Assembly: GCA_002731275.1 (NCBI GenBank)
Contig: PCBK01000126.1
Coordinates: 1 to 33,994, forward strand
Source: Deltaproteobacteria bacterium
GTDB taxonomy: Bacteria > Myxococcota_C > UBA6777
DNA length: 33,994 nt
Direction of reading: 5' to 3'
Under the pieces are notes generated by a model. The model ran no database searches. It had not been told where the DNA came from and worked only from the letters and a program-made list of their open reading frames with translations. This document shows positions 1,967 to 28,918 of this stretch, piece by piece. A program made the position numbers and the translations under genes. The stretch's first letter is position 1. The number at the start of each line of letters is the position of its first letter.

Positions 1967-1989
1967 CATTTATATAACAGGACCCCCTC

Positions 1990-3114: not shown

Positions 3115-3248
3115 CCAAAGCAGTGATGAGGCTGCTCTTGCCAACCCTCCTTCGTGTGATTTTTCCATCCAACGACCTTACCAAAATTTGGAATAGAGTC
3201 TATCATGGCCAAGATCTATTTCTCCAAACACGGCCCAAGGAGCGAGAC

Positions 3249-4259: not shown

Positions 4260-4311
4260 TCCATTTGGCAAAAAGAGGAACCAACTGAGCAACACGAGGG
4301 AGCCCCACAAG

Positions 4312-6153: not shown

Positions 6154-7163
6154 GCTTTGCGGATATCATCGATGAATGATTTGTAGAGAGGACCTCTCTT
6201 CGCGAGCTCTTCGTGCATCACGTGGACTTTTTTCATAAAGGGCGCTTTGTCTGGATGTTGGAAGGTGATCTTGAGCGTCGTGCGTGCCTGTTTGTTGGCT
6301 TTTTCAATGGCCTCTTTCCACTTACGACGCTGGATCTTCTTTGAGTATGCAGCCGCTTGCTTGACCCACTTCTTCATCTGCGGTGTCAGCGTACGCCAGA
6401 TCCTCTCGCTGATAATCAAGATATCGGGGAGCATCGTGTGTTCGTTTTTGGAGAAGTTCTTGATCACCTCACCATGCCGGCCAAGTGTCAGCGCGGTGAT
6501 GTTGCTCTCTGCACCATCGATCACACCTTGTTGCAGCCCTGTATAGATCTCGCCGTACGGCATGGGCGTAGGTGAACCTCCCAACAATTTGACCATGCGA
6601 ATCGCCGTTTGACTGCCCATCACACGGATCTTGAGACCCTTCAAATCTTTGGGATGAAGGATCGGTTTGCGGGTGTAAAAACTCCGCGCACCACTGTCGT
6701 AGTAGGTCAGTCCCCTAAGAAGCTTACTCGTTGGTGTTCGAAGCATTTTCTCACCAATCTCACTGTCGAGGACGTTGTAGTAGTGCTTTTTGCTGCGGAA
6801 CATGTAGGGAAGGTTCAAGACGGCGATCTCAGGCGCGAAGGCTTCGAGATTCATGCTGGAGACCTTGGTCATCGCAACAGCCCCAAGTTGGATGAGTTCG
6901 AGGACATCGCGCTCAGGACCTAACTGTCCATTGGGGTACAACAGCACCTCAAGTTTGCCATTGGAGAGTGATGAGAGCTTCTTTTTGAAGGCAACAAGAC
7001 CGAGGTGGACGGGGTGTTCTTCGTTGAGATTGTGACCGAGAATGAGCTTCTTGTTGACCTGTCCACTGCTCAACCATAACGCCGACATACCTGACACAAC
7101 GACCGCCATCCACACAATGAGAGACAGTGTTGAGTAACCACCTTGTGTATTCACTTTCAGCAT
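6147..7163 (-). CDS. TRAP transporter solute-binding protein, DctP family
   Basis: This 338-residue protein has an N-terminal membrane anchor or signal (about residues 12-33) followed by the DctP fold. Family hallmarks are ARSFYTRKPI, HPKDLKGLKIRVMG (the P-x-DLKG-K-R signature), the LGGSPTPMPYGEIYTGLQ block and GVIDGAESN. These proteins capture organic acids, including sialic and uronic acids, in the periplasm for DctQ/DctM permeases. No permease gene lies in the window, so its partner must be elsewhere. A uronic-acid ligand is suggested only by the adjacent glucuronidase. The ribosome binding site GAGGAGAAAGT directly precedes the ATG. Its 3' end overlaps the uidA stop by 7 bp (tail to tail), so no bidirectional terminator fits between them. 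Confidence 0.9.
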   Translation of the reverse strand: MLKVNTQGGYSTLSLIVWMAVVVSGMSALWLSSGQVNKKLILGHNLNEEHPVHLGLVAFKKKLSSLSNGKLEVLLYPNGQLGPERDVLELIQLGAVAMTKVSSMNLEAFAPEIAVLNLPYMFRSKKHYYNVLDSEIGEKMLRTPTSKLLRGLTYYDSGARSFYTRKPILHPKDLKGLKIRVMGSQTAIRMVKLLGGSPTPMPYGEIYTGLQQGVIDGAESNITALTLGRHGEVIKNFSKNEHTMLPDILIISERIWRTLTPQMKKWVKQAAAYSKKIQRRKWKEAIEKANKQARTTLKITFQHPDKAPFMKKVHVMHEELAKRGPLYKSFIDDIRKAQ

Positions 7164-7496: not shown

Positions 7497-8906
7497 ATGA
7501 GTAAGATATTCATGAACCGCCGACACTTTTTACAAAATGCAGGGATCGCATCACTGGCATTCAGCCCACTTATCACATCATCACGTGCGCTCGCAGACAC
7601 GGGCGTCAAACCACGACTCCTCTTCATCATGTTACAACATGGTGTGGGTGGCCCGGGTGGGGCCAAAGGGACAGAACACAACTTCACCTTTTCGCCGTGG
7701 CTCTCACCACTCACCCCGATCAGAGAGCACGTCACACTCGTCGATGGCCTCTTTGGTACATGGTGGGGTAACGCACACGATGAGTCATACGCACACCTCC
7801 TCACAGGCAGCGCCGACCCGGCGAAGCGAGGCGCACCTCGTACCCCCTCAGTTGAAACCTTCCTCGAACAAAAGCTCGGAAAGGGAGTCCTTCCGGCACA
7901 ACGACTGATATCATGGGCTGGTGGTTCAGCCAGAAGCAACGGCGCCTTGTCGCTTTGCTACGACACCCACTTGAAACCCATCTCACTACAAACAGGTACG
8001 CTCGCACAAGCCGCCATCCTCAACAACGTCGGTGGTGTGCAATCGAACGAAGCCAAACTTCGCGCACTCAGAGAGAAGCGCAAGAAGATCCTCGACGAGG
8101 TCGCAGGTGAGTTAAAAACCCTCCGCAGTCGCCTCACAGTCGAAGAAAAGATCAAGCTCGACCAATTCACCAACTCCATCAACGAGACCGCCTCAGCGCT
8201 CGGTCTCAATGGGACCATCAAAACAGGTGGAAATTGTCAGGCACCGACATCCATCCCCAAGGAGTGGTGGAAAATCCAGGGACACCAACGATACGAGCTG
8301 GGTATCAGCTCACAATTCTCCAACTTGAAGACGGCCTTTGCGTGCAACCTCACGCGATTTGGCGTGCTCAGGATCGGTGAAGTCCCCCACGATATCTATG
8401 ATTGGAAAGACTCATCAGGCAAGACCCGTAGAGGGAAGCCCTGTGGAAGTTCAGTCAACTTTCACCAATGTGTCGCCCACTACAAAGATCTCGAAGGGCG
8501 TTTGTGCTTTGAAGGCAGCGTCAAATGGTCCATTCAGAAGATCGCAGATTTCGCCAAAGAGCTGGACGCGATCAAAGAGCCCAATGGACACACGTTGTTG
8601 GAGAACACTATCATCGTGATCAGCGGTGAAGTCGGTGATGGAAACCACGACCGCAACCGCAAACCCTTCTTGGTGATCGGTGGACGTGGCGCGCCCGGAC
8701 TCAAAACAGGTCGCCACATCAAAATCCCTCAACAGCTCGGCTGGACCCTCAAGACACCAGATGGTGATATCAAACAACAACCATTTGCACGTGTCAGTCA
8801 ACGTACAGAACCTGACTTCTGGAGAGAGATCTGCGAAGCGATGGGTGTCAAACTCAAGACCTTCGGCTCTCCCTATCTCAATCGCGGACGCATCGGACTT
8901 CTCTAG
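7497..8906 (+). CDS. DUF1552 family secreted protein, copy 1
   Basis: This 469-residue protein belongs to the DUF1552 family, which has no known biochemical activity and is usually encoded next to DUF1592-type proteins. That is the case here. The N-terminus NRRHFLQNAG followed by a hydrophobic stretch and RALA fits a twin-arginine (Tat) export signal, so it is probably exported folded. Family features include the HGVGGPGG turn, TEHNFTFSPWL, LVDGLFGTWWGNAHDES and the C-terminal VISGEVGDGNHDRN block, and HDIYDW lies in the middle. The start at 7497 follows AAGGAG by 10 bases, and the paralogue at 12752 has the same MSKIFMNRRHFL start. It is first in an apparent five-gene operon. Its closest relative in view is the protein at 12752-14146. 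Confidence 0.85.
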   Translation: MSKIFMNRRHFLQNAGIASLAFSPLITSSRALADTGVKPRLLFIMLQHGVGGPGGAKGTEHNFTFSPWLSPLTPIREHVTLVDGLFGTWWGNAHDESYAHLLTGSADPAKRGAPRTPSVETFLEQKLGKGVLPAQRLISWAGGSARSNGALSLCYDTHLKPISLQTGTLAQAAILNNVGGVQSNEAKLRALREKRKKILDEVAGELKTLRSRLTVEEKIKLDQFTNSINETASALGLNGTIKTGGNCQAPTSIPKEWWKIQGHQRYELGISSQFSNLKTAFACNLTRFGVLRIGEVPHDIYDWKDSSGKTRRGKPCGSSVNFHQCVAHYKDLEGRLCFEGSVKWSIQKIADFAKELDAIKEPNGHTLLENTIIVISGEVGDGNHDRNRKPFLVIGGRGAPGLKTGRHIKIPQQLGWTLKTPDGDIKQQPFARVSQRTEPDFWREICEAMGVKLKTFGSPYLNRGRIGLL

Positions 8907-8948
8907 ACGAGAAGAGTACACTCACAGCCAAAAAGAGAGAAGTCTATC

Positions 8949-10472
8949 ATGAATATGTTTCGCCTCGGATTACTCACGTGTGTCCTGGCGTTTGTGTTTG
9001 TCCATTGTGGCGTCAGCCAAAACACATGCACCCCAGGAAACATTGGATATTGTCCATGTCCTGATGGTTCACAAGGTAAACGTACCTGTCAGGGGAACGG
9101 TATCTTTGGTGCATGTTACTGTCAGGTCACTCCGCCTAACACACGGACACCTGGAAAAGAAGCCAGTCACAACACAGAACCCACGACCACAACCGAACCC
9201 ACAACCACAACCGAACCCACAACCACAACAGAGAAAAGTACAAACACAGAACCTTCTGCAGAACCGACCCAGACGGAACCTGCAAAAGAAGTTGTCGTGA
9301 CACAAGAGCCTTCAGCAGAGCCGAATAACGGACAAGACGCCGGTGTACCAGAGCCTGTCAAAGAAGAAGAGAACAAACCGTGTAGCCCGACATGTGGTAA
9401 AGGTGCAACCTGCCAAAGCGGTTCATGTGTTTGCTCCGATGGCAAAGAGTACTGCCAAAATTACTGCTCAGATACACGCTATGACCCCCACCACTGTGGT
9501 TCATGTGGCAAAGCATGCAAGACAGATCAGGCGTGTGTGGACCAAGTCTGTCAATGCTTCTATTCAAAGCTGTTGCAAACAGATGAATTAGGTTGTCACT
9601 TCATCGGACATATTGCCTTCAGTCCTGACGCGAAGCTCGTAGCAGCAGTCCACTACAACTCGTGGGGATGCAACAAAACACCTGTCGGCGTCTGGAATGT
9701 CAAGACGAAAAAGCTCATAAAAACCATCGATAAATCCGTTAGAAGCCCTGCAAGTCTACACATCGCACACGACAACGACACGTTGCTCGTCGGTGGTCAT
9801 GTTGCGGTAGAGAGATTCAGCCTCACAGACAAAACGATCAAGAACAAACACATCTACCCAGGTGGTTTGGTGATAGGAGCAGCGCTCAACCCCATCGCTT
9901 CGGCAGACCAGATCGCGATTGGTGTCAAGAAACAATACGTGATGATCGCGGGGGCAGCAGCCAACGCAAAGACGACGAAGTTGCAAGGGTTTAAAGGGCA
10001 TCCTTTCTTGCTCGCGTATCGCCCAGATGGTAAGCGCCTCGCAGTTGCGTCGGACCAAAATGAGCTGTGGATTTACGACACGAGCACTTGGAAGGTCGTC
10101 AAAAAATATACGAAAAACACAGGTACACTGTCATCACTCTCTTACAACAAGAAGGGTGACACGCTCGCGATAGGACAAACGAACAGCAGCGTCGTGCTCT
10201 GGAAACCTGACACGGACACGATTGAGAGGACGATCAAGGTACCATCAACGTTTGACTACCGCGTGTATCACGCTGTCTTCAGTAAGGATGGTAAGTATCT
10301 GTTTTCAGCATGGGGTGATCGCACGGTAAAAATCCACGACCTCACCAATGGCCAACAAGTCCACGTCATTGGAAACCACAGAGATGAAGTACGCGCCTTC
10401 GCAGTATCTCCCGACGATAAAGTGCTGCTCTCTGGTGCTGGAAAATACCTCCGCTGGTGGGGGTGTCCATGA
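8949..10472 (+). CDS. Stig1-like/WD40-like beta-propeller lipoprotein, copy 1
   Basis: This 507-residue envelope protein has four parts. A signal peptide ends at C20 with lipobox-like FVHC; His before Cys is unusual. A Cys-rich motif follows (about 27-58, with CPCPDGSQGKRTC). A low-complexity T/E/P linker spans about 60-140. A Stig1-like module (about 145-203) contains EYCQNYC, DTRYDPHHCGSCG and ACVDQVCQC. The rest is a beta-propeller of WD40/YVTN type, with repeating units such as AFSPDAKLVAAV, YRPDGKRLAVAS, VFSKDGKYLFSAWGD and AVSPDDKVLLSG. Such propellers usually bind proteins. Both this gene and its paralogue (14246-15769) lie directly downstream of a DUF1552 gene, so the two products probably work together at the cell surface. 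The start is inferred from the paralogue; the ribosome binding site is weak. Confidence 0.8.
   Translation: MNMFRLGLLTCVLAFVFVHCGVSQNTCTPGNIGYCPCPDGSQGKRTCQGNGIFGACYCQVTPPNTRTPGKEASHNTEPTTTTEPTTTTEPTTTTEKSTNTEPSAEPTQTEPAKEVVVTQEPSAEPNNGQDAGVPEPVKEEENKPCSPTCGKGATCQSGSCVCSDGKEYCQNYCSDTRYDPHHCGSCGKACKTDQACVDQVCQCFYSKLLQTDELGCHFIGHIAFSPDAKLVAAVHYNSWGCNKTPVGVWNVKTKKLIKTIDKSVRSPASLHIAHDNDTLLVGGHVAVERFSLTDKTIKNKHIYPGGLVIGAALNPIASADQIAIGVKKQYVMIAGAAANAKTTKLQGFKGHPFLLAYRPDGKRLAVASDQNELWIYDTSTWKVVKKYTKNTGTLSSLSYNKKGDTLAIGQTNSSVVLWKPDTDTIERTIKVPSTFDYRVYHAVFSKDGKYLFSAWGDRTVKIHDLTNGQQVHVIGNHRDEVRAFAVSPDDKVLLSGAGKYLRWWGCP
9177..9230 (+). repeat. In-frame 18-bp tandem repeat (EPTTTT)x3
   Basis: Three consecutive 18-bp units encode EPTTTT in the linker of the propeller lipoprotein. 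The paralogue has a Pro/Glu/Ser-rich linker of similar length but different sequence at the same place. The segment is therefore under length or flexibility constraint rather than sequence constraint. Replication slippage is the likely origin. Confidence 0.8.
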
Positions 10473-10543
10473 ACAACAACGAAACAACCATCAACCCAAA
10501 AAAAATAGAGCCCATCCGGAACATAGCCCACACGGAGCAAGGT

Positions 10544-12724
10544 ATGACAGGCAACAAACGAATGCATAGTAAGAGTTGGCTTTTCTCAGGTTTCTCGTTG
10601 TGGTTGATCATCGGACTCAATCTCTCTTGGAGCGCATACGGCTGCTTGGGACAGATTGGAGAGACTGGATACGAGTACGTCTTCGTGGACGCCGGCCAGA
10701 CAACCCCTCCAGATCAGACGACGACCACGCCTGATAAAACAGTGACCACACCAGATCAGACGACAACCACGCCAGATCAAACAACGACCACGCCCGATCA
10801 GACGACGAAAACACCTGACAGCAGCGAACCACCTGTTTACTACGCAGATGTGTACAAAGGATTTTTGCAAGAGTTTTGCACAGGTTGTCATGGGAACGGA
10901 AGCTCTCAAACTCGGGTAGACAGCTACTCAAACGAAACCCATCTCGCCAAAGCAGGCAAGTCGAGCGCCTTCGATTATTGGACATATGCAAGAGATCGCA
11001 TCAAAAAAGGCGAGATGCCCTCCAAAAAACCCGTGGCAGAAGACGAACAACAACGTCTTAATGATGGTATCGCCCTCTTTGAGCGTTGGGCCAAAGCAGG
11101 TTTCCCAGAGAAAGCCGGCGGCTCCACAACTCCCAACGACTTCAAAGGCAAAGAAGATCCTTTTGTCGTCTTCCCAACAACTGCGACATGTAAAGGGAAG
11201 GATCCACTGCCAGCGCGTCTTTGGAGATTGACAGGGCGACAGATCCGATACAGCATCCTCGACGTGTTCGGGAGCCAACTCAACCTCCCAACGATCAACA
11301 TCAGCAGCAAGCGAAGTGGCGGTGTCACAAACAGCGCGAGCGAATCAGGGCTTGACAACGTCGATGTCACACAGCTGCTCAAGGCCTACGAGCAAGTCTC
11401 CACAGAGATCCTCAAAAACAACAAAGAGTGGAAAGATTGCCTGTCCAAGAGTGACGATACCTGTGTCAAACCCTTGATCACCAAGTACGGTCGCCTCTTG
11501 TGGCGAAGAGAGCTGACCCAAGAGGAGTCAGACAAACTCTTCCAAGGCTACAAATCCTTGGTGAAAGACTCACGAGATTATGCACTTGGCTTCATCATCG
11601 AGAGACTGATGCTCTCCTCTAAGTTTCTCTTCCGCTCGGAGATGGGAGATGTTGTCTCAGGCCAACCCAACACACGTCGCTTGAACCACCAAGAGGTCGC
11701 AACATTCCTGTCCTTTACGATCTGGCAAAGTGTACCAGACGATGAGCTGTTGACAGCCGCCAAAGAGAACCGCCTGGGAACACTCCCAGAAATCCGCGCA
11801 CAAATTCAACGTATGGCAAAAGATAAGCGAGCACTTCGCCCAATCGCCGAATTTATCACGGATTGGCTTCATATACGCGATATCCTCACGCTCCAAAAAG
11901 ACACCACAACCTTCAAAGAAATCACCCCCCAACTGCGACAAGATGCAGTGGATGCGGCGCTGAAGCTATTAGAACACGTCATTTGGGTCAAAAAAGGTTC
12001 CATCGCCGATGTCTTCCAAAGCAAGGATGTCTTCCTCAATAAAAACCTCGCGAAGCTGTACAGCAGCGTCAGCAGTACAAGTGACGGTCTGGAGATGAAG
12101 CAAGCAGACCCCACACAACGTATGGGGATTCTCACAACACCAGCCTTTGTGATGTCCCACTCCAAAGAAGCAACGACGGGCTTTGTCCACCGTGGCGTCT
12201 TTTTCCTCGAAGAACTCTCATGTAGACCGCTTGGTAACCCTCCAGATGACTTGAGCTCGGGTGAAGAACGAACCAAAAACGTCGACAAGAGCAAGCTCAC
12301 AACCCGACAACTTCTGGAGTCATTGCACTCGGCCGAGCCGAGCTGTAACAACTGCCACAAAAAGATCGATCCCATCGGTGCAGCCTTTGAGATTTTCGAC
12401 CCACTCGGACGTTACCGCATCATGGAAAATGGAAAACCCATTGACGCGTCAGGAAAGCTCGATGGCTTCAACGGTATGAAACCAGAGTTCAACAACGCGA
12501 TTGAGCTCATCAAAAACATGACCGACTCAACCCACTTCCGTCAGTGCTTCACACTCAAGTTGCACACGTACACTTGGGGAAGAACACCTGAAGGCATTCG
12601 CAACTGCTCTATCGCGACGATGTTTGAACACCTCAAAGGCAAAAACTTTGAGTTGCTTCAAGTGCATGAAGCGCTGCTTGCGAATCAACAATTCTTCCTG
12701 CGTACAGAGACAACAAAGAAGTGA
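10544..12724 (+). CDS. Planctomycete-type cytochrome/DUF1592 family lipoprotein with two CxxCH motifs
   Basis: This is a large exported protein of the PSCyt1-DUF1587-DUF1595-DUF1592-DUF1588-DUF1585 architecture. The haem-c motif CTGCH is at residues 112-116. RLTGRQIRYSILDVFG marks DUF1587, LLWRRELTQEESDKL marks DUF1595 and LNHQEVATFLSFTIW starts DUF1592. FVHRGVFFLEELSCRPLG and CNNCHKKIDPIG (second CxxCH, 601-605) are DUF1588, and the C-terminus is DUF1585. The frame is open from 10457, overlapping the previous gene. The ATG at 10544 has GGAG six bases upstream and puts a clean signal peptide and lipobox (SAYGC, C34) at the N-terminus, giving 726 residues. Some relatives are linked to extracellular redox or polymer degradation; the exact reaction is unknown. 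It sits between the two DUF1552 genes. Confidence 0.87.
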   Translation: MTGNKRMHSKSWLFSGFSLWLIIGLNLSWSAYGCLGQIGETGYEYVFVDAGQTTPPDQTTTTPDKTVTTPDQTTTTPDQTTTTPDQTTKTPDSSEPPVYYADVYKGFLQEFCTGCHGNGSSQTRVDSYSNETHLAKAGKSSAFDYWTYARDRIKKGEMPSKKPVAEDEQQRLNDGIALFERWAKAGFPEKAGGSTTPNDFKGKEDPFVVFPTTATCKGKDPLPARLWRLTGRQIRYSILDVFGSQLNLPTINISSKRSGGVTNSASESGLDNVDVTQLLKAYEQVSTEILKNNKEWKDCLSKSDDTCVKPLITKYGRLLWRRELTQEESDKLFQGYKSLVKDSRDYALGFIIERLMLSSKFLFRSEMGDVVSGQPNTRRLNHQEVATFLSFTIWQSVPDDELLTAAKENRLGTLPEIRAQIQRMAKDKRALRPIAEFITDWLHIRDILTLQKDTTTFKEITPQLRQDAVDAALKLLEHVIWVKKGSIADVFQSKDVFLNKNLAKLYSSVSSTSDGLEMKQADPTQRMGILTTPAFVMSHSKEATTGFVHRGVFFLEELSCRPLGNPPDDLSSGEERTKNVDKSKLTTRQLLESLHSAEPSCNNCHKKIDPIGAAFEIFDPLGRYRIMENGKPIDASGKLDGFNGMKPEFNNAIELIKNMTDSTHFRQCFTLKLHTYTWGRTPEGIRNCSIATMFEHLKGKNFELLQVHEALLANQQFFLRTETTKK
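10700..10819 (+). repeat. In-frame 21-bp tandem repeat (TTTTPDQ-like, about five to six copies)
   Basis: A degenerate 21-bp unit encoding TTTTPDQ (variants TTPPDQ, TTTTPDK, TVTTPDQ, TTKTPD) is repeated just after the lipobox of the DUF1592 protein. It would form an extended Thr/Pro/Asp tether between the lipid anchor and the first haem-motif domain. Confidence 0.85.
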
Positions 12725-12751
12725 ATCCAGGCAACAAGAAGGAGCAATGGC

Positions 12752-14146
12752 ATGAGTAAAATTTTTATGAACCGTCGACACTTTCTACGCAACGCAGGGA
12801 TCGCATCGCTGGCATTCAGTCCACTGATCACATCATCACGTGCGCTCGCAGATACAGGTGTCAAACCACGTCTTCTGTTTATCTTTTTGCCCCACGGTCC
12901 TGGCGGCCCTGGTGGTGGAAAAGGGACCGAGCACAACTTCACATTTTCACCGTGGCTCTCACCTCTGTCAGCGATTAAAGAGCACGTCACGCTGGTCGAT
13001 GGACTCTTTGGCACATGGTGGGGCAACGCACACAACGTCTCCTACGCCCACCTCCTCACAGGCAGCGCCAACCCCAACGGTGGCCCCCCACGCAACCCTT
13101 CTGTGGATGTCATGTTGGAGAAAAAACTCGGCAAAGGCGTTTTGCCTGTCCAGCGCCTTGTGGCCCGAGCGAGTGGTTATGCAGGTGGAAGACAGGTCTG
13201 CTATGGGGACAACCTCAAGGCGATCTCACTGCAAACAGCCTCACAAGCACAAGCCGCCATCCTCAACAACATTGGTGGTGTACAATCGAGCGAAGCCAAA
13301 CTTCGCGCGCTCAGAGAGAAACGCAAGAAGATCCTCGATGAGGTCGCAGGTGAGTTAAAAACCCTCCGCAGTCGCCTTACATCCGAAGAAAAAATCAAGT
13401 TTGACCAGTTCACAAACTCCATCAATGAGACCGCCTCTTCACTCGGCCTCAATGGGACCATCAAAACAGGTGGAAACTGTCAAAAGCCAGGCGCCATCCC
13501 CTCCACCAAAGGGCTCAGTCGCAACAAAGTCTACGAGCTCGGCATTGACACGCAGTTCGCCAACTTGAAGACGACCTTTGCGTGTAACCTCACACAATTT
13601 GGCGTCCTCTCGTTTAATGAAATCCCCCACGACATCTATGATTGGACAGACTCATCAGGAAAGACCCGCAGAGGAAAACCTTGCGGAAGTACGGAAAACT
13701 TTCACCAATGTGTCGCCCACTACAAAGACAAAGATGGACGTCTATGCTTTGAAGGCAGTGTCAAATGGTTCATGCAAAAGATCGCCAACTTTGCCAAGGA
13801 GTTGGACGCAATCAAAGAGCCCAACGGACACACGTTGTTGGAGAACACTATCATCGTGATCAGCGGTGAGGTCGGTGATGGAAACCACGACCGTAACCGC
13901 AAACCCTTTGTCGTGATCGGTGGACGTGGTGCGCCCAAACTCAAAACAGGACGTATCATCAAGGTCCCACAGCAATTTGGATGGGGCCTGACCACCACAG
14001 ACGGAAAGATCAGCATCGACAGTCGAGCCGCGATCAGCCAACGCACAGAGGCTGATTTGTGGAGAGAGATCTCACAGGCCATGGGCGTCAACTTGAAGAC
14101 CTTCGGCTCCCCCTATCTCAACCGTGGACGCATCGGACTCCTCTAG
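12752..14146 (+). CDS. DUF1552 family secreted protein, copy 2
   Basis: This is a 464-residue paralogue of the protein at 7497-8906, matching along its whole length. It has the same Tat-type N-terminus (NRRHFLRNAGIASLAFSPL), the same TEHNFTFSPWLSPL block, the HDIYDW motif and the C-terminal VISGEVGDGNHDRN and SPYLNRGRIGLL segments. The proteins differ mostly around residues 105-160 and 240-260, which may be specificity loops. The ribosome binding site AAGGAG is well placed before the ATG, 27 bases after the DUF1592 gene. The DUF1592-DUF1552 order seen here is the common arrangement of the pair in other genomes. The extra upstream DUF1552-lipoprotein pair is therefore the likely addition. Function is unknown beyond export and operon context. 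Confidence 0.85.
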   Translation: MSKIFMNRRHFLRNAGIASLAFSPLITSSRALADTGVKPRLLFIFLPHGPGGPGGGKGTEHNFTFSPWLSPLSAIKEHVTLVDGLFGTWWGNAHNVSYAHLLTGSANPNGGPPRNPSVDVMLEKKLGKGVLPVQRLVARASGYAGGRQVCYGDNLKAISLQTASQAQAAILNNIGGVQSSEAKLRALREKRKKILDEVAGELKTLRSRLTSEEKIKFDQFTNSINETASSLGLNGTIKTGGNCQKPGAIPSTKGLSRNKVYELGIDTQFANLKTTFACNLTQFGVLSFNEIPHDIYDWTDSSGKTRRGKPCGSTENFHQCVAHYKDKDGRLCFEGSVKWFMQKIANFAKELDAIKEPNGHTLLENTIIVISGEVGDGNHDRNRKPFVVIGGRGAPKLKTGRIIKVPQQFGWGLTTTDGKISIDSRAAISQRTEADLWREISQAMGVNLKTFGSPYLNRGRIGLL

Positions 14147-14159
14147 CACCTGGCTTTTC

Positions 14160-14215
14160 CAACCACACACTTTTAGTATTCAACTCCGCTCAACATCGAT
14201 GGGAGTGTGTGGTTG
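14160..14215 (+). repeat. 12-bp perfect inverted repeat between operon genes
   Basis: CAACCACACACT (14160-14171) and AGTGTGTGGTTG (14204-14215) form a perfect 12-bp stem around 32 bases. It fills most of the 99-base gap between the second DUF1552 gene and the second lipoprotein gene. There is no T-run, so it is not a typical Rho-independent terminator. It could stabilise or partly attenuate the transcript. Confidence 0.6.
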
Positions 14216-14245
14216 CCTGACCGAGACAATCGAAAGGTCTTTATG

Positions 14246-15769
14246 ATGAACATCTTCCGTTTGGGATTTTTGTGCTGCGTGTTTGCGTTTGTGTTTGTCC
14301 ATTGTGGCTCCAATCAAAACACCTGCTCTTCTGGGAATGTCGGATTTTGTACTTGCCCGGATGGTTCTCAGGGCGAGCGAAAATGCCTCAGCAGTGGTAC
14401 ATTTGGCGCATGCTATTGCAAAGTAAGCCCCCCACCCACCCGCAAAACAGAAGGCAGCAAAACAGAGCCTTCCCAAGAGCCGACGAAGACAGAGAGCGCC
14501 CCAGAGCCACGTCCAGAGCCTTCTGTAGAGTTGACTCCAGAACCTACGAAAGAACCCATTCAAACAGAACCCTCTCCAGAGCCTTCTGTGGAGCTGTCTC
14601 CAGAGCCGAGTGTGGAGCCACAAGAACAAGACGCAGGTCCTCCAGAGCAGCCCATCGACCAAGGAAACAAGCCGTGCAGTCCGGCTTGTGGTAAAGGGGC
14701 AACCTGTCAGGGTGGTTCGTGTGCTTGTGCGAATGGCGAAGAATACTGCCAAAATTACTGCGCAGATACGCGCTATGACCCCAATCACTGTGGGGCATGT
14801 GGGCGTATCTGTAAAGCTGAACAAACGTGTGTTGATAAACAATGTCAATGCTTCTATTCAAAGCTTATCCACACAGAGGATATGGGCTGCAATTATGTCG
14901 TGAACGTCGCCATGAGCCCTGATGGCAAATATACGGCGGGCATCAACATGAATGGGGGGAGTGGTTGTGGCGCGGATCTGACGGTCTGGGACACAAAGAC
15001 AAGAAAACTCGTCCTCCAACTCAAGAAACAGACATACAAGCCATCTTTCATCAAATACTTTCCAGACAACGATCTGCTCTTCATGTCAGGCGGTCGCAGG
15101 GTCAAGTGGTACAGCACAAGCCAAAAGAAATACATCAGCTACGCCGACTCACCGAGTAGAGCTACGGTCATTGAGCTCTCAGGGGACCCGACAAAAGGAA
15201 GACAATACGTCGCGATGGCAACAATTGCACCGTCCTTCTCTGTCGTCAATATGGCGAACCGCAAGACCGTGAAGTCATTTAAAACATTGCCCGGTCGCCC
15301 CAACGGTTTGATGTACCGTCCCGATGGAAAGCGTCTCGCGGTCGGCTTCTCCACAAAAGAGTTGTGGATCTATGATACGACGAGTTGGGCAACCACTCAA
15401 AAAATCACGCTCCCTGAAGGTGTGAAGACACTCGCGTACAGCAAAGATGGGAAACTTGTAGGTGTCGGCATGGGCGGTAACAAAATCGCGATTGTCGACG
15501 CTGCCGCAGGTACCATCCAGCGCACGATCACCTTCAACAACACCTTCACCTACGAGATCTACGATGTGGAGTTTAGCGCAGATGGCAAATATATCTTCTC
15601 CTCTTGGGGAGATAGAAGTATTAAGGTCCACGACGTCAGCACAGGCAGTCTCGTCCACACCATCGCAGGGATGCGCTTTGCAGTTTTGGGACTTGCGGTC
15701 TCTCCCGACGGAAAATACGTGATCTCAGGTTCCGGGAAAAAAGTCGAATGGTGGGGTTGCGGAAATTAA
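14246..15769 (+). CDS. Stig1-like/WD40-like beta-propeller lipoprotein, copy 2
   Basis: This is a 507-residue paralogue of the protein at 8949-10472, with identical length and domain order. The signal peptide ends in FVHC (C20), followed by the CTCPDGSQGERKC motif, a Pro/Glu/Ser-rich linker in place of the Thr-rich one, a Stig1-like module (EYCQNYC, DTRYDPNHCGACG, QCQCFYSKL) and a propeller (NVAMSPDGKYTAGI, YRPDGKRLAVGF, EFSADGKYIFSSWGD, AVSPDGKYVISGSG). The frame is open from 14207. The ATG at 14246 matches the paralogue's MNxFRLG start and has AAGG eight bases upstream; the ATG at 14243 is equally possible. It is the last gene of the apparent five-gene unit. It is probably membrane-anchored, with the propeller exposed for protein binding. 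Confidence 0.8.
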   Translation: MNIFRLGFLCCVFAFVFVHCGSNQNTCSSGNVGFCTCPDGSQGERKCLSSGTFGACYCKVSPPPTRKTEGSKTEPSQEPTKTESAPEPRPEPSVELTPEPTKEPIQTEPSPEPSVELSPEPSVEPQEQDAGPPEQPIDQGNKPCSPACGKGATCQGGSCACANGEEYCQNYCADTRYDPNHCGACGRICKAEQTCVDKQCQCFYSKLIHTEDMGCNYVVNVAMSPDGKYTAGINMNGGSGCGADLTVWDTKTRKLVLQLKKQTYKPSFIKYFPDNDLLFMSGGRRVKWYSTSQKKYISYADSPSRATVIELSGDPTKGRQYVAMATIAPSFSVVNMANRKTVKSFKTLPGRPNGLMYRPDGKRLAVGFSTKELWIYDTTSWATTQKITLPEGVKTLAYSKDGKLVGVGMGGNKIAIVDAAAGTIQRTITFNNTFTYEIYDVEFSADGKYIFSSWGDRSIKVHDVSTGSLVHTIAGMRFAVLGLAVSPDGKYVISGSGKKVEWWGCGN

Positions 15770-22878: not shown

Positions 22879-23015
22879 TTTCTTCTCCTTCACATTGTTA
22901 CCAAGTCCAGCAAGACGCAGCGCACAAAGGAAAGTTCACCTCCCCTCCACGCTTCTTTTTTTTAAGATTGAAAAAACAAGCACTTAACATACACATCGCC
23001 ATTTCAAATGCTCAA

Positions 23016-23052
23016 AATGAGTATTTTATACTTGACAACACATATACTCATT
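23016..23052. promoter_or_regulatory. Inverted AATGAGTAT half-sites around the -35 box
   Basis: AATGAGTAT (23016-23024) and its exact reverse complement ATACTCATT (23044-23052) are separated by 19 bases and enclose the TTGACA -35 hexamer. The same half-site in the form AATGAGAAT recurs near the kinase start (23177-23193). A dimeric regulator or DNA looping is a reasonable inference. Confidence 0.55.
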
Positions 23053-23060
23053 CATAGCAT
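23032..23060 (+). promoter_or_regulatory. Promoter of the kinase/vWA/PurA-like operon
   Basis: A perfect -35 hexamer TTGACA (23032-23037) is followed after exactly 17 bases by TAGCAT (23055-23060), a 4/6 match to the -10 box. Transcription would start near 23067, just ahead of a ribosome binding site and a short leader ORF. Confidence 0.6.
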
Positions 23061-23080
23061 AACGTATCACCAAGGAGAAC

Positions 23081-23107
23081 ATGATCGTTTCATACTTAAA
23101 TATGTAG
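23081..23107 (+). CDS. Possible 8-residue leader peptide
   Basis: An AAGGAG site (23072-23077) precedes ATG at 23081, which opens an 8-codon ORF, MIVSYLNM, ending in TAG. It lies directly downstream of the predicted transcription start and about 100 bases before the kinase gene. The spacing of three bases is short, so translation is uncertain. It is too short for a functional protein, but it could couple translation to expression of the downstream operon. Confidence 0.3.
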   Translation: MIVSYLNM

Positions 23108-23176
23108 ACATTTTCACACTCAAACCTTTGATTAAAAATGATAAAAGAACCTTTTCAACATACGTTCACATGTAAA

Positions 23177-23193
23177 ATTCTCACAATGAGAAT
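23177..23193. promoter_or_regulatory. Palindrome ahead of the kinase start codon
   Basis: ATTCTCA-CAA-TGAGAAT is a perfect palindrome with 7-bp arms, 15 bases upstream of the kinase ATG. Its right arm is part of AATGAGAAT, which differs by one base from the half-sites at 23016 and 23044. It could be a second operator, or an RNA hairpin that affects access to the weak GAGG ribosome binding site. Confidence 0.5.
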
Positions 23194-23208
23194 AACAACA
23201 GCGAGGAT

Positions 23209-24978
23209 ATGATGAAAATCCCCGAGAGAGTCATGGAACATTTCCTGACAGGTGGTGAGCAAGCGCCACCAACAGACGTGTTGGCACAAAAAGGTCAGCG
23301 GTGGGACAACAGATACATCATCGGAGAGCTTTTGGGACAAGGTGGAATGGGCGTTGTGTACAAGTGCTGGGACGAGTGGCGAGAGAAAGAGATCGCGCTC
23401 AAACGCTTGCACCCTTGGCTGGCAACAGAGAGTCAGGCGCTCATACGTAACGAGTTGGAAGCACTCAACACACTCCAGCACGAAGCGCTCGTGAGGACAT
23501 ATGATCTTGGGTATCAACAAGAGACTGGCGAGTGGTACTTCACGATGGAGTATGTCGAGGGAGAAGACCTGGAAGCGACCCTATGCCGCGCAAAAGAACA
23601 TGAGACACTCCCATTATTTCCATCGGTTCGCTGGCTAGGATGGCTCGAAGCGCTCTGTGATGCGCTCTCCTACACCCACCAAAAAGGATGGCTACACAGG
23701 GATCTCAAACCTTCGAACATCATGCTTCTTCGGGATGGGAGCATCAAACTGCTCGACTTTGGGATCGCCCTCCCCGGTCAACATACGACACCTTCGGGAC
23801 AACCCACAGGGACTGCGTACTATATGTCTCCTGAGCAGCTCGAAGGAAAGGGACAGTTAACACCAGCATCGGATATCTATGCCCTTGGTGTGATTGTCTA
23901 CAGGTTGCTCACAGGACGCCTCCCTATGGGCCGTCTTCAAGGTCCCTGGTCCGACCTGAAAAAAGCGGGATGGACACCGGATTTTCCAAAAGAAGTCGAC
24001 GAATGGGTGCTCAAAGCACTTGAGACTGCTCCTCGCGATCGATACCAGGATATCGAGACGTTTTGGGCTGCGTGTCAGGCGCTTCCTTTCTCAAAAGTGG
24101 AGACCCAAACAGAGGAGCTTAGACAGTCCCCACCTCACCCCCCAAAAAACACCTTGTTCCACATCGATACGGACAAGGGACGACTTTTCGCGCACACACT
24201 CTTTGCACAAGGAGAGCTGTCCACACTTTACAAAGGCACGTACGAAACGCAGGACGAAACAAAAGACATGGTGATCAAAATCGTCGATGAGATCGAAGAT
24301 AACGATCTAATGGCTGACGAGATCCGCGTCTATACGCTGCTTCAAATGGACGAAAAAGACCGCAGCCAACACATCCCACTGTTGTCGGGACACTTTCAGC
24401 TCCCGGATGGACGACAGGGACTCTACCAACCTTACATCGACGCTCACAACCTCGAATACGTTCGACAAATATACCCTCAAGGTGTCCCCCTTGAGCACGT
24501 GATCTGGATCTTTCGTAGGTGCCTGAGCGTTATTGGATATGCCCATCACAAGGGCATTATACACGGAAATATCGACCCCACTCATATCCTCGTCAGAGGG
24601 TATGACCACAACGTCTTCTTGCTCGATTGGAGCTACGCCATCGTCGAACCCGCCCGCACAGGGCAAGGGTTTAAATGCTGGAATGCCCTCTACAGCGCGC
24701 CAGAAGTCAAACAACGCAAACCGCCTGTCCCAGGCTCCGATCTCTACTCACTCGCCCGGTGCGTCATCTACCTCCTCGGAGGTGACGTAGAAGCAGAAGA
24801 ATGTCCCGCCCATGTAGACGAACGCTTCGAGAGGTTTCTCGGCTTCTTTTTGCGAAAGAGCCCTCTACAGCGGGCACGGGATGCGTGGGAGATGTATCAC
24901 CAGCTAGGCAAATTACGCAAAGAGATCTTTGGAAAACATAAGTTTATCCCTTTTCCCATTGACCAACATACACACTAA
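23209..24978 (+). CDS. Ser/Thr protein kinase fused to a C-terminal pseudokinase
   Basis: The 589-residue protein carries two kinase-like domains and no membrane segment. Domain 1 (about 33-295) has all catalytic elements: glycine loop GQGGMG (43-48), K65, E82, HRDLKPSN (D165, N170), DFG (183-185), SPE (207-209) and D222. Domain 2 (about 315-575) keeps VIKI (K357), E371, APE (497-499) and SDLYSLA, but its glycine loop is eroded (FAQGELS). HRD has become HGN (452-454), the metal-binding Asn is H459, and DFG is DWS (473-475). It is probably an inactive regulator or scaffold. The ATG at 23212 is better spaced from GAGG than the one at 23209. It is first of four clustered genes; vWA partners are typical of TerY-P-like phospho-signalling. 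Confidence 0.9.
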
Positions 24979-24990
24979 GGAGAGAACATC

Positions 24991-26469
24991 ATGGGTGGTG
25001 GAATTTACGATCAAGACGTCGCGATCAGAGCACGTTCAAGCAACAACAACGTATTCGCATACCAGGGATACGGCGTCAACGCTGTTGAAGCGACAGAGAC
25101 ACAACAACAAAAGGTTCATCAATCGCTCGATCCATTCGACAAGGTGAGAGAGTGTAATAACGAGACGCCCATCGTGATCGCGCTTGATGTCACCCGTTCA
25201 CGGGGTGAAGACACTCGAACAGTCTATGAAAAATTACCGATGTTCATCGGTCAACTCTTGATGAAACAATACGTCCCAGGACCAGCGATCAGCTTCGCCG
25301 CGATTGGAGATGCCCACGCAGGAGATAAAGCCCCCCTTCAGGTCGGTCAGTTTGAGGCTGATAACAGACTCGATGATGTCCTCAGTCACGTCTGGATCGA
25401 AGAGGGAGGCGGCGGCACAGGCCAGGAATCCTACGAGTTGGCTGCTTACTTTTACAGCCGCACAAAGCTCGTCCAATACGAGAAGACGGGCAAGAAAGGA
25501 TACTTCTTCTTTGTGGGCGATGAAGGATACTACCCAACATTGCCCAAGAAACAGGTCCGCAAGATCATCGGCGACAAGCTCAAAAAAGACCTCGACTCCA
25601 TCGAAGTCTTCAAGGCATTACAGGAGAAATTTCATGTCTTCTTTGTCTACCCAACGCAATCCTGGGAATCGCGTATCAACGACATCGACGCAGAGATCAA
25701 AAAGCGCGTACAGGAAGCTGGCGGACAATACGATGGTGTCGACATCAGAGTCTCACTACTGTGGAACAACCGCAACGACCTTGACCTTCACGTGATCACC
25801 CCCTCCGGTGAGCGTATCTACTACGGAAACAAACAATCCCGCTGCGAAGGCTGGCTCGACGTCGATATGAATGTTCGTGGTGAGACGAGTAAACCTGTCG
25901 AAAACATCCGCTGGAAGACAGGGACTGCCCCCAAAGGGACCTACCAGGTCGTCGTGAGAAACTTTGCCTTCCACGAGCCAAAGAAGACACGCACGGAGTT
26001 TCAGGTAGAGTGCGAGATTGATGGCGAGATGAAGCACTTTTCGGGGACGATCTCTGACAAAGGCGAGACAGGTGAGAAGAGCGACGTCGTCGTCTATACC
26101 TTCGATTATGACCCCTCAAAAAAACAACTCCCAGTCGACGAAAATGACGAAAAATACGCAGGCTACAAAGACGAAGTCATCATCGAACAGTGGAGACGCG
26201 CCCTCCCAGATGAGAATATCTTGATGCTCGACGACCCCAAAGCCATCCTCGACGTGATGATGGGCGCGATGGCGATGGTCGAAGGGACCAGTGATATGGA
26301 GCAATTTCTCGCCTCTATGCGCTCACTTGACCGGACAACCCTCCGCCAAGAACAGATCGCCAGAGCGCTCGAAAAGCTCGCCCTCACACAAAGTAAGAGC
26401 AAGGTCGAAGTCCACAACCTGACACAAGCCAAGCAAGTAAAGAAAAAGCGTCGCACAAGTCGCCTCTAG
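24991..26469 (+). CDS. von Willebrand A domain protein with DUF2135/YfaP-like domain
   Basis: This is a 492-residue cytoplasmic protein. The vWA domain (about 58-225) has a metal-ion-dependent adhesion site: D66-V-T-R-S70 (DxTxS), a Thr in GGGGTGQES (T143) and D177 in FVGDEGYY. Residues about 252-345 (RVSLLWNN, DLDLHVITPSGERIYYGN, GWLDVDMN, KGTYQVVVRNF) resemble the DUF2135/YfaP beta domain, which often accompanies vWA modules. A helical stretch and a Lys/Arg-rich tail (KKKRRTSR) end the protein. The N-terminal 50 residues are Gly/Asn/Gln-rich, probably flexible and a possible kinase target. The gene begins 12 bases after the kinase gene, with AAGGAG overlapping that stop, so co-expression is near certain. 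It may be the substrate or adaptor of the kinase. Confidence 0.85.
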   Translation: MGGGIYDQDVAIRARSSNNNVFAYQGYGVNAVEATETQQQKVHQSLDPFDKVRECNNETPIVIALDVTRSRGEDTRTVYEKLPMFIGQLLMKQYVPGPAISFAAIGDAHAGDKAPLQVGQFEADNRLDDVLSHVWIEEGGGGTGQESYELAAYFYSRTKLVQYEKTGKKGYFFFVGDEGYYPTLPKKQVRKIIGDKLKKDLDSIEVFKALQEKFHVFFVYPTQSWESRINDIDAEIKKRVQEAGGQYDGVDIRVSLLWNNRNDLDLHVITPSGERIYYGNKQSRCEGWLDVDMNVRGETSKPVENIRWKTGTAPKGTYQVVVRNFAFHEPKKTRTEFQVECEIDGEMKHFSGTISDKGETGEKSDVVVYTFDYDPSKKQLPVDENDEKYAGYKDEVIIEQWRRALPDENILMLDDPKAILDVMMGAMAMVEGTSDMEQFLASMRSLDRTTLRQEQIARALEKLALTQSKSKVEVHNLTQAKQVKKKRRTSRL

Positions 26470-26483
26470 AGCAGGAGCCTCTC

Positions 26484-28001
26484 ATGTCGAGCACACCAGA
26501 AGCATACATTGTCGTCGGTTTGGGTTATGGAGATGAAGGAAAAGGCTCTATCACGGACGCGCTCACGCGCGTCTACAAGGCCAAACATGTCATCCGCTAC
26601 AACGGTGGTCCACAAGCCGCCCACCACGTCGTCACTGATGAAGGTCAACTTCACTGCTTTGCCCAATTGACCTCTGGGACATTCACTGAGGAAGTGCGTA
26701 GCCTCCTTGGACCGGAGATGTTGATCAACCCCCTCAACATGCTCGAAGAAGCTCGCGTTCTCGAAGAGGAGGGAGTCAAAGACCCCCTCTCAAGAGTGTA
26801 CATCGATCCGGCCTGCCTTGTTGTGACGCCCTACCACAGGCAGATCAACAGGATGAAAGAGTCCCTGAGAGGGACATCGAGACATGGCAGCTGCGGGCAG
26901 GGTGTCGGGCAGGCGTGGATGGACGCACAAAAAGAAGGTTACCCTGTCTTGCGCTTTGAAGACCTGTTCGACAAAGAGCGATGTCGTCAGTTACTCAAGT
27001 GGATCTGGATGATGAAGATCGATCTCGCCGAACAGTGGCTCGATCTTCATCCCGAACGTGAAGACTTGAGAGAGAGCTTACACCAACTACAATACGCCCT
27101 CCCCTACGAGGTTTTGTGTAAACAATACCTCGACTTTGCCTATCATTCGGGGGTTCACAAAGCCGACGTCGCGAGCGACCTCTCTGTACACCACAACCAC
27201 CAGACCTTGATCTTTGAGGGTGCGCAAGGTGTTTTGCTCGATCGAGAGAGGGGTTTTTGGCCCCACGTGACGCCCTCTGATACGACCGCAGGAGAAGCAC
27301 ACAAGATACTGGAACGCGCGGAGCTTCCTCACACTCCACATGTCTTGGGGATCTTACGTGGGTATGCCTCCAGACATGGTGCAGGTCCTTTTGTTTCGGA
27401 GGTCTTTGGACTCGAGCAGGCATTACCAGAACAACACAACGGGACCAATCGATGGCAGGGAGATTTTCGAGTGGGGTGGTTTGATTTGGTGAAGGCGAGA
27501 TATGCTCTTAAGGTCGCCAAAGAGGTCAACTCTATCGCTCTTACACAGCTTGACAGGCTCGCAATGTTAGAGCACTTCGAGGTCTGTACAGCTTATGAAT
27601 ACACGGGCTTTGTGGATGAAGCGCTTCATCGCTTCTTTGATGTGGAAGAGACAGAAGGTCGTGTGCTCATTCACGACATCCTCGTCCCTCCCAAGGCAGA
27701 CAGAAGCCACCAAGAAGAATTGACGAGGCGGTTGAGAGATTGCTCACCTATCACAAAGACCTTCGAAAGTTGGCCGACACAAGAGCGGATAGAGAGCTTG
27801 TGTCCGTCTCTTGAGACATTTATCTCCTTTCTCGAATCACCGGAAGGGCTCCAGACCCCCATCTCGATCCTCTCGTTTGGACCGACCGCTGAAGACAAAT
27901 ACTTTCTCCAAGATCTGCGCCCAACGACAGAGGTCCTGCTCTCTTCTGTTTGGTCCTCACCGACAAAAGATGTTCGCATTGCGAACAACGCTTGCACCTG
28001 A
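26484..28001 (+). CDS. Divergent adenylosuccinate synthetase (PurA) homologue
   Basis: The predicted 505 residues are longer than the usual 430 of PurA. The fold signatures are present: GYGDEGKGSITD (D17 equals the catalytic Asp13 of E. coli PurA), GGPQAAHHVV (H47 equals His41), FEGAQGVLLD, SDTTAG, GAGPFVSEV, RVGWFDLVKARYA and TQLDRL (D357, guanine contact). GTP-dependent chemistry is therefore plausible. The parts that set the substrate differ. GTTGRGIGPAY is replaced by HGSCGQGVGQAW, the aspartate loop GATTGRRRR is replaced by NGTNRWQGDFR, and the Lys before the guanine Asp is Gln. It is likely a specialised ligase on a nucleotide rather than the housekeeping enzyme. Its ATG is 14 bases after the vWA gene, with AGGAG between. 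A truly divergent PurA is the alternative. Confidence 0.8.
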   Translation: MSSTPEAYIVVGLGYGDEGKGSITDALTRVYKAKHVIRYNGGPQAAHHVVTDEGQLHCFAQLTSGTFTEEVRSLLGPEMLINPLNMLEEARVLEEEGVKDPLSRVYIDPACLVVTPYHRQINRMKESLRGTSRHGSCGQGVGQAWMDAQKEGYPVLRFEDLFDKERCRQLLKWIWMMKIDLAEQWLDLHPEREDLRESLHQLQYALPYEVLCKQYLDFAYHSGVHKADVASDLSVHHNHQTLIFEGAQGVLLDRERGFWPHVTPSDTTAGEAHKILERAELPHTPHVLGILRGYASRHGAGPFVSEVFGLEQALPEQHNGTNRWQGDFRVGWFDLVKARYALKVAKEVNSIALTQLDRLAMLEHFEVCTAYEYTGFVDEALHRFFDVEETEGRVLIHDILVPPKADRSHQEELTRRLRDCSPITKTFESWPTQERIESLCPSLETFISFLESPEGLQTPISILSFGPTAEDKYFLQDLRPTTEVLLSSVWSSPTKDVRIANNACT

Positions 28002-28096
28002 TCGGACGATTTTCGACACGAAAGATAAAGAGACATTGCCTGCGAGAAGAGAGATCCATACACTGGAGACATCATCGTACGAGCAGGAGTAGATTC

Positions 28097-28918
28097 GTGT
28101 TGAGCAATACAAAGACGACAAAGAGCAAACAACTCACACCGTTCGAAGAGTCTTTCGAGAGTGATCCCAATATGGGCAACTTCCCGACACGGCTACAGGA
28201 GAAGAAATCGCCAAAGTGGGCAATATTTTTGCCGCTCGTCTCACTGTGGTATGGGCTCTGTTGGTACACCATCCCGCAGGATTCTCTCAGCAAGTGGCTG
28301 CAAGGGCTGGCTTTGATCTTTACACCTTCTTCGGCAGGTAAGTGGATGGAACATTTCCAACCTGTCGCTTGGATCGCCCTCGCATTATTTGGCAGCCTTT
28401 GTCTCGCAGGTGTCTTGATGCAGCTATCTCGCGATGAAGTTGTCGTTGAGTTCGCAGGATGGGTCGTCCGATCTGGCCTCTTCTTCGTGATCTTGATGGT
28501 GTTTCAGCTCTTCTTTTTGGGGCAAACGACAAAACAACACACATTTGCCGAAGTCATCTTCTTTTCAGGTGCAGGTGGGAGCGTCTTTGGTGGGTTGTAC
28601 ACGTTGCTCGTCGATTGGGAAGACACAGAGTCCTCTTCTGTCGTCGTCGCTATGACCTTTGCCGTCGTCGGCATGATGCTATTCGCCGGCTTCGTGGGCT
28701 GGTTGGTCATGGACGTCGGCTGGGAATGGATGGAGATCTTTATCGGAATCAGGGGCATGGTTGTCGGTGGTGTGATGGGGGCAGGTCTTGGTTTTGGACT
28801 CAGCTCACTCTTTGGGGAGCTCTTTGACGCCTTCTTCAAGCGCCTGCTTATTGCGGGTGTGACAGCCAGCGCACTACATATATCCCTACTCGCCGTGCAT
28901 CACCTGGGGTTCCTGTGA
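28097..28918 (+). CDS. Multi-pass membrane protein of the kinase operon
   Basis: No family is recognised. The 273-residue protein has a soluble N-terminus of about 45 residues and six to seven hydrophobic helices (about 46-64, 90-106, 118-138, 150-170, 180-205, 215-240 and 250-272). One of them is Gly-rich (MVVGGVMGAGLGFGL). The frame is open from 27950, inside the PurA-like gene. The GTG at 28097 is preceded by AGGAG with seven bases spacing and is the likely start. The 95-base gap after the PurA-like gene shows no terminator, so it probably belongs to the same operon. It could be a membrane receptor, effector or anchor for the cytoplasmic kinase/vWA/PurA-like proteins; this is inferred from position only. 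Confidence 0.7.
   Translation: MLSNTKTTKSKQLTPFEESFESDPNMGNFPTRLQEKKSPKWAIFLPLVSLWYGLCWYTIPQDSLSKWLQGLALIFTPSSAGKWMEHFQPVAWIALALFGSLCLAGVLMQLSRDEVVVEFAGWVVRSGLFFVILMVFQLFFLGQTTKQHTFAEVIFFSGAGGSVFGGLYTLLVDWEDTESSSVVVAMTFAVVGMMLFAGFVGWLVMDVGWEWMEIFIGIRGMVVGGVMGAGLGFGLSSLFGELFDAFFKRLLIAGVTASALHISLLAVHHLGFL

Follow-up and report, generated by a model that had tools for sequence, protein, structure and literature searches.

A PurA-like protein encoded with a vWA protein and a pseudokinase in bacteria and phages, and its possible relation to NAD/ADP-ribose nucleotides

The operon of the window

The window, by which we mean the whole stretch of 33,994 nucleotides analysed here, contains four open reading frames following each other in one direction (Table 1). 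Between them lie gaps of 12, 14 and 95 bases, as an earlier note on this DNA had claimed, and these genes have plausible ribosome-binding sites. The same note placed the run behind one good promoter: the site, TTGACA-17-TAGCAT, indeed agrees with the consensus at 10 of 12 positions and is the joint best of the stretch, but promoter-like sites number 7 in the stretch against 4.4 +/- 2.1 in shuffles and do not stand out clearly from the random expectation. An imperfect inverted repeat (23008-23024 / 23044-23060) overlaps this candidate promoter and is a possible operator. The operon is flanked by minus-strand genes for an alpha/beta hydrolase and an acyl-CoA thioesterase, with DUF1552, DUF1592 and WD40 genes farther left. 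The note had proposed to look for the system in defence islands; the flanking genes that we examined are ordinary and there is no such island around the operon.

Table 1. Features of the operon (positions in the window)
Feature	Positions	Strand	Basis
Sigma-70-like promoter before gene 1	23032..23060	+	consensus match only
Gene 1: active Ser/Thr kinase fused to a C-terminal pseudokinase	23209..24978	+	Pfam, motifs, AF2/Foldseek
Conserved pseudokinase module, C-terminal half of gene 1	24139..24975	+	motifs, family alignment, pLDDT
Gene 2: vWA protein with MIDAS	24991..26469	+	MIDAS columns, fold match, PHROG
Domain inserted in the gene 2 vWA protein (DUF2135 / P-domain-like beta domain)	25729..26106	+	
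Gene 3: PurA-like GTP-dependent ligase (predicted)	26484..28001	+	PF00709, active-site table, tree
Gene 4: polytopic membrane protein	28097..28918	+	GTG start, hydrophobic segments

Gene 1 matches the Pfam family Pkinase (2.8e-55) over two stretches. According to its motifs, the N-terminal half (amino acids ~28-300) is an intact Ser/Thr kinase and the C-terminal half (amino acids ~311-585) is a second kinase fold, in which HRD is replaced by HGN and DFG by LDWS while the beta3 Lys and the alphaC Glu are kept. The AlphaFold2 model was used for this second half only, where the pLDDT is above 90 for most residues and where Foldseek finds PknB and other kinases; the active-kinase half was modelled poorly, probably because the alignment had set J-domains against it. 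The C-terminal half aligns with stand-alone J-domain pseudokinases encoded at the related loci described below. Among 63 diverse members of this pseudokinase family, the Asp of HRD, which an active kinase should have, is present in two (it is Asn in the window), DFG has become D/G-W, the beta3 Lys is found in 51 and the alphaC Glu in 54, and most members have an N-terminal J-domain with its HPD motif (Pfam calls DnaJ in 31). The closest relatives of the window system, in two Blastocatellia MAGs (L057 and L067), have retained the J-domain, and their vWA proteins are 55-60% identical to that of the window and contain the same inserted domain. The presence of an active Ser/Thr kinase in the place of the J-domain thus makes the window system a variant with a phospho-signalling input.

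Pfam does not call a vWA domain on gene 2. The protein nevertheless has the MIDAS pattern DVTRS / GGGGTGQESYELA / GDE (D66-T68-S70, GGGGTG, GDE), whose columns (DVT.S, GGGG..ES, GDE) are invariant or nearly so across the family, and Foldseek finds integrin I-type domains as matches to its model (3.6e-8). This is what is expected of a vWA domain with a MIDAS, namely DxSxS / T / D on a Rossmann-like fold. The protein also matches phrog_2971 at 8.5e-43. Its inserted domain, near residues 247-372, is beta-rich, resembles the Pfam family P_proprotein weakly (0.029) and matches phrog_1735 and phrog_23228; the same insert is present in related loci of Acidobacteriota and Patescibacteria (L057, L067, L046 and L055), and DUF2135 is matched by one of 54 members.

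Gene 3 matches the adenylosuccinate synthetase family (PF00709) at 2e-75 and phrog_1211 at 6.6e-83, and scores under every curated NCBIfam PurA/PurZ cut-off (for PurA, 225 against 402 bits and 196.7 against 395.6 bits). An ordinary purA (607 bits) lies on another contig of the same genome. This means that gene 3 is a PurA paralogue and that AMP synthesis is independent of it. A separate canonical purA is likewise found in all six genomes tested, which are the window genome and five other carriers.

Gene 4 starts with GTG behind AGGAG and codes for 273 amino acids with about five hydrophobic segments. The earlier note had counted it in the system, which we could not uphold: it has no homologue in any of the loci that we fetched, and we rejected it as a fourth core member. 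With PADLOC 2.0.0, the only models matched by gene 1 are those of kinases, owing to its kinase domain, and genes 2 to 4 match none.

A trio conserved in bacteria and phages

Starting from PurA similarity alone, we obtained seeds from Chloroflexota-type genomes, from Rhodococcus, Tsukamurella and Variovorax plasmids and from mycobacteriophages; in these, a vWA gene adjoins the PurA-like gene, and so does a kinase-fold gene where the flank reached it. An exact-peptide search of genome contigs with the PurA-like protein of the window gave no relative. A clade alignment was needed to gather relatives, and gave 80 genome and 80 viral loci spanning Chloroflexota, Actinomycetota, Myxococcota, Acidobacteriota, Cyanobacteria, Patescibacteria and viral contigs of up to ~500 kb.

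A vWA gene lies next to the PurA-like gene, always on the same strand, in 144 of the 145 testable loci: 69 of 70 in genomes, where the loci are the best 80 of 556 hits and thus the nearest to seeds already having the trio, and 75 of 75 in viruses, where the set reaches 34-40% identity with the linkage kept and so partly offsets the seed bias of the genome set. The pseudokinase is present in 62 of 70 genome loci and in 57 of 75 viral loci, that is in at least 119 of 145, a lower bound as divergent forms may escape the profile. Searching in the reverse direction, from the vWA protein, recovered a PurA-like gene in 68 of 72 viral loci, most of the others being on truncated contigs. In a control with matched flanks (1.4 kb), the linkage was found for the PurA-like gene in 70/72 and 68/75 cases, against 0/17 for canonical purA. 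Hence the suggestion of the earlier note that a kinase-fold protein, a vWA protein and a PurA-like protein might stay together across unrelated taxa holds, and its two objections, that PurA-like homologues might mostly lack such neighbours or that the genome might have no other purA, are answered by these counts and by the separate purA reported above. We concluded that the pseudokinase, the vWA protein and the PurA-like protein are almost certainly one functional unit, and that the window carries one member of this widespread conserved trio.

Within the phylum of the window, the trio was found in one of five genomes, that of the window itself, which suggests patchy or horizontal inheritance. 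It is present in 41 of 61 genomes of the genus of locus L066 and in 29 of 116 of the class of locus L059; several copies are on plasmids, and it is common in phages. A pyruvate-kinase-barrel gene stands between the vWA and PurA-like genes in the two Blastocatellia MAGs only. At two Chloroflexota loci, we also noticed a Peptidase C11 gene.

The active site of the PurA-like protein

In a FastTree phylogeny of 127 sequences, all the 108 PurA-like proteins form a single clade with a support of 0.943 and a long stem, inside which the viral or cellular label switches 9 times against ~35 times in shuffles. The active site was examined in a sequence alignment of 158 sequences of this clade, with the E. 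coli numbering. Apart from the contacts of R303 and of the alpha-phosphate Arg cited below, the roles of the residues are established from PurA structures. D13, K16, H41 and the GTP-site D333 are kept in all the sequences and Q224 in 99% of them, and all five are found in the window protein; S414 (91%) and G416 (96%) of the GTP site are also widely kept. The contacts to the phosphate of IMP are changed (N38Q in 100%, T129C in 95%, R143 lost), and so are those to aspartate (R303G in 77%, R305F in 74%, with T301W in 82% and G302Q in 97%), while V273H is found in 100%. N38, T129, R143, Arg303 and Arg305 are all replaced in gene 3, as they are in most of the clade. In PurA, R303 touches aspartate, and an Arg of the other subunit ion-pairs with the alpha-phosphate (PMC8342488).

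When compared to PurA (PF00709; 1ade, 1kjx), the trio protein therefore shares the fold, the GTP site D333/S414/G416/P417 and the catalytic D13/K16/H41/Q224, but it differs by the above replacements and by K331H/C, belongs to a separate clade and has fixed vWA and pseudokinase neighbours. On residues and scores, we rejected the identification of gene 3 as a canonical PurA. The alignment shows that the predicted GTP site and the residues predicted to place the gamma-phosphate of GTP on a ring carbonyl are kept, whereas the predicted contacts to the 5'-monophosphate and to free aspartate are lost. The simplest inference is that GTP-dependent carbonyl activation would be kept and that both coupling partners would have changed. 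Judging from these residues, the PurA-like protein is quite likely to be active as a GTP-dependent ligase whose two substrates are not the IMP and aspartate of PurA.

The PurZ and PurZ0 proteins of Z-genome phages (PMC8342488, PMC12884076) are also phage-borne PurA paralogues with a changed substrate pocket. PurZ, however, has a Ser (S23 in S-2L; PMC8342488) at the position of D13 and uses ATP and dGMP, while the trio protein keeps this Asp in 158 of 158 sequences; as gene 3 moreover scores 70.8 bits against a cut-off of 300 bits with NF038379, a PurZ is ruled out. No DatZ or MazZ genes were noted in the trio loci examined. In phages, the three components correspond to phrog_3043 (kinase), phrog_2971 (unknown) and phrog_1211; PHROGs name these proteins singly, and describe neither a system nor a function for the trio. 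The name '2-aminooxy adenylosuccinate synthetase' given to phrog_1211 is not supported by the residues.

NAD genes around the trio and a possible function

In all the 41 actinobacterial loci with enough flank, an NrtR-type NUDIX gene (winged-helix) stands directly before the pseudokinase gene on the same strand, and the Nudix box is intact in 18 of these 41 proteins. On Rhodococcus and Tsukamurella plasmids, a gene of the same NUDIX family lies downstream of the trio, and in an Anaerolineae locus one lies upstream, which shows that the association came about in more than one gene order. The NUDIX gene is present in seven viral loci too, and a NadV-family gene in ten, some of which are near-identical. 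In the phages L114, L116 and L121, genes for NUDIX, NadV, vWA, PurA-like, pseudokinase and CTP-transferase (NMNAT)-like proteins follow each other in this order, in most cases nearly end to end and, in L116, mostly with short gaps; the phage NadV matches NAMPT-family structures at 5e-152. By eye, the N-terminal half of the CTP-transferase-like protein resembles CinA/PncC, an identification which could not be confirmed.

In two further, near-identical phage loci (L139 and L140), a Namat-like gene and a PRPP-synthetase (Adps)-like gene lie between the vWA and PurA-like genes. The Namat-type protein scores 432 bits with 9w5w against ~198 with 7yqo, and we infer that the structures 9w5w and 9ke8 are Namat. 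NARP1 uses this same pair of enzymes, and a different gene, found as an insertion in a NARP1 operon, has been shown to supply NAD+ synthesis (PMC13232231). There are thus several phages in which the trio stands in or beside operons of the known NAD+ reconstitution routes (NARP1, with Adps and Namat, or NadV with NMNAT). However, its own enzymes are unrelated to those of these routes, and there is no NAD gene beside it in the window, in most Chloroflexota, Myxococcota and Patescibacteria loci or in most phage loci. Since many trio loci are without such a gene, the link with NAD is a strong lead and not a proof; we give about even chances to the PurA-like enzyme working on nucleotides of the NAD/ADP-ribose family.

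The best reading of these data, which we hold tentatively and at a little under even chances, is that the trio is a GTP-dependent ligase complex tied to NAD/ADP-ribose nucleotides. The PurA-like enzyme would activate the carbonyl of a nucleotide other than IMP, most likely of the NAD/ADP-ribose family, for coupling to a nucleophile that is not aspartate. Judging from their domain types, the vWA protein, through metal-dependent binding, and the pseudokinase may assemble, gate or feed the ligase. The J-domain of the pseudokinase would recruit Hsp70; in the window, an active kinase stands instead and the regulatory input would be rewired to phosphorylation. The NrtR-type NUDIX of the same operon, in Actinomycetota and some phages, would tie the trio to the levels of ADP-ribose or NAD. 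Phages may use it to support NAD+ regeneration, and bacteria for NAD or nucleotide repair or homeostasis. With the same reserve, we propose that a PurA paralogue, a vWA protein and a J-domain pseudokinase make up a GTP-dependent ligase complex of a new class, which would repair or make a modified NAD/ADP-ribose-type nucleotide, or put a nucleotide onto a protein, in bacteria of many phyla and in the NAD+ regeneration of phages during infection.

The replacement of the aspartate loop beside retained catalytic residues, together with partners of a chaperone-like binding type (HPD in most of the 63 pseudokinases, a nearly invariant MIDAS), would also suit a ligase that modifies proteins. The J-domain/pseudokinase and the vWA protein would then present a side chain, to which the PurA-like enzyme would couple a GTP-activated nucleotide, or this enzyme would couple a GTP-activated protein amide, in either case producing a new post-translational modification. 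We consider this unlikely: no conserved substrate protein is found next to the trio, and the NUDIX, NadV and NMNAT neighbours suit a small molecule better. We also have doubts about a role in conflict or signalling, as the earlier note suggested, where the pair of kinase and vWA protein would sense infection and the PurA-like enzyme would make a nucleotide signal or deplete a nucleotide, the phage copies being counter-measures. The patchy spread reported above, the plasmid copies and the abundance in phages would be explained by it, but no recurrent effector gene was seen beside the trio, the vWA and PurA-like proteins have no PADLOC match, and the window locus is not in a defence island; we regard it as an improbable explanation, the data being more in favour of a role in NAD/ADP-ribose nucleotide metabolism.

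A spare adenylosuccinate synthetase boosting the supply of AMP would account for the PF00709 match and for the retained catalytic core. It is very unlikely when one considers that a canonical purA was present in each genome tested, that most of the 158 members have other residues in place of the contacts to the IMP phosphate and to Asp, that the score is far under the curated cut-offs and that purine genes are absent from the recurrent neighbour families listed. Least credible of all is a signalling operon of the TerY-P type with an unrelated passenger gene, to which the earlier note had likened the pair of kinase and vWA protein. The TerY-P triad consists of a vWA protein, a PP2C phosphatase and a kinase, and the trio resembles it in that a vWA gene adjoins a gene for a protein of kinase fold, as is also the case in the window. 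However, no PP2C is found among the window genes scanned or the recurrent neighbour families, and the vWA protein of the window matches no TerY model in PADLOC or NCBIfam. The conserved kinase-fold protein is an inactive one that usually carries a J-domain, and the trio has a PurA-like enzyme instead of a phosphatase. The neighbourhood counts already contradict this likeness, the vWA gene being linked more tightly to the PurA-like gene (144/145) than the pseudokinase gene is (119/145).

In the open-licence literature, to which our search was confined, we found no description of the trio, and PurA goes unmentioned in three comparative studies, of conflict systems, jumbo phages and NAD systems. 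The trio was apparently undescribed before. Given its occurrence in distant bacteria and in many phages, and given that NAD-recycling genes are often its neighbours, it seems that a widespread part of nucleotide biochemistry has gone unnoticed. Should the link with NAD be true, it would add a further enzyme to the contest of phages and bacteria over NAD+; should proteins be modified instead, the type of modification would be new. The trio occurs in bacteria as different as Patescibacteria and actinomycetes as well as in jumbo phages, and can be tested directly in tractable strains and phages. Nearly 190 records of sequenced mycobacteriophages, from a group well studied in the laboratory, contain it; a survey of mycobacteriophages had noted a kinase-like protein in cluster C.

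Repeats and neighbors of the operon in the window

Two repeats lie upstream of gene 1, which encodes the kinase-pseudokinase, and both are possible operators (see the Table). Further upstream, the alternation of DUF1552 and DUF1592-type genes with WD40-repeat proteins is a layout which we take to be associated with Planctomycetes; the genome bearing the window measures 10.75 Mb.

Features of the window and of other loci carrying trio genes (pseudokinase, vWA protein, PurA-like ligase)
Locus	Position	Feature
Window	7497-15769	three genes, two DUF1552 and one DUF1592-type, alternating with WD40-repeat proteins
Window	23008-23060	imperfect inverted repeat, 17-nt, surrounding the promoter
Window	23177-23193	perfect 7-nt repeat ATTCTCA-3-TGAGAAT, directly 5' of gene 1
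L028, Bixzunavirus LifeSavor	1912-3726	vWA gene with intein
L034, Chloroflexota	3323-5878	large protein upstream of vWA gene
L037, Chloroflexota	324-2885	large protein upstream of vWA gene
L057, Blastocatellia MAG	6031-6978	pyruvate-kinase-barrel-like gene between vWA and PurA-like
L067, Blastocatellia MAG	6112-6999	pyruvate-kinase-barrel-like gene between vWA and PurA-like
L116	8416-9552	CTP-transferase-like (NMNAT-type) protein
L121	8510-9709	CTP-transferase-like (NMNAT-type) protein
L139/L140, viral contig	3607-6005	Namat-like and Adps-like (PRPP-synthetase-like) genes between vWA and PurA-like

Variation among the trio loci

The pyruvate-kinase-barrel-like gene is absent from all loci other than the two from Blastocatellia. 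The large Chloroflexota proteins are related to each other, that of L034 being a Peptidase C11 (Pfam), and no pseudokinase was detected at either locus. In many genomes of Myxococcota, paired vWA genes are frequently found near each other, and in two Myxococcus loci (L059 and L065) the PurA-like gene has a vWA gene on both sides. The intein of LifeSavor is inserted immediately 5' of the conserved GDE motif; judging from their single-piece matches, the other members of its group seem to lack it.

NAD-related genes and the name of phrog_1211

The Namat-like and Adps-like pair may be a NARP1 module, that is, a phage pathway of NAD+ reconstitution. Both CTP-transferase-like proteins have an N-terminal half of about 210 residues, and a sequence search of the PDB with the L116 version returned no match. 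The label "2-aminooxy adenylosuccinate synthetase" of phrog_1211, the PHROG family matching the PurA-like protein, is unsupported by the active-site residues and seems to be a propagated misnomer.
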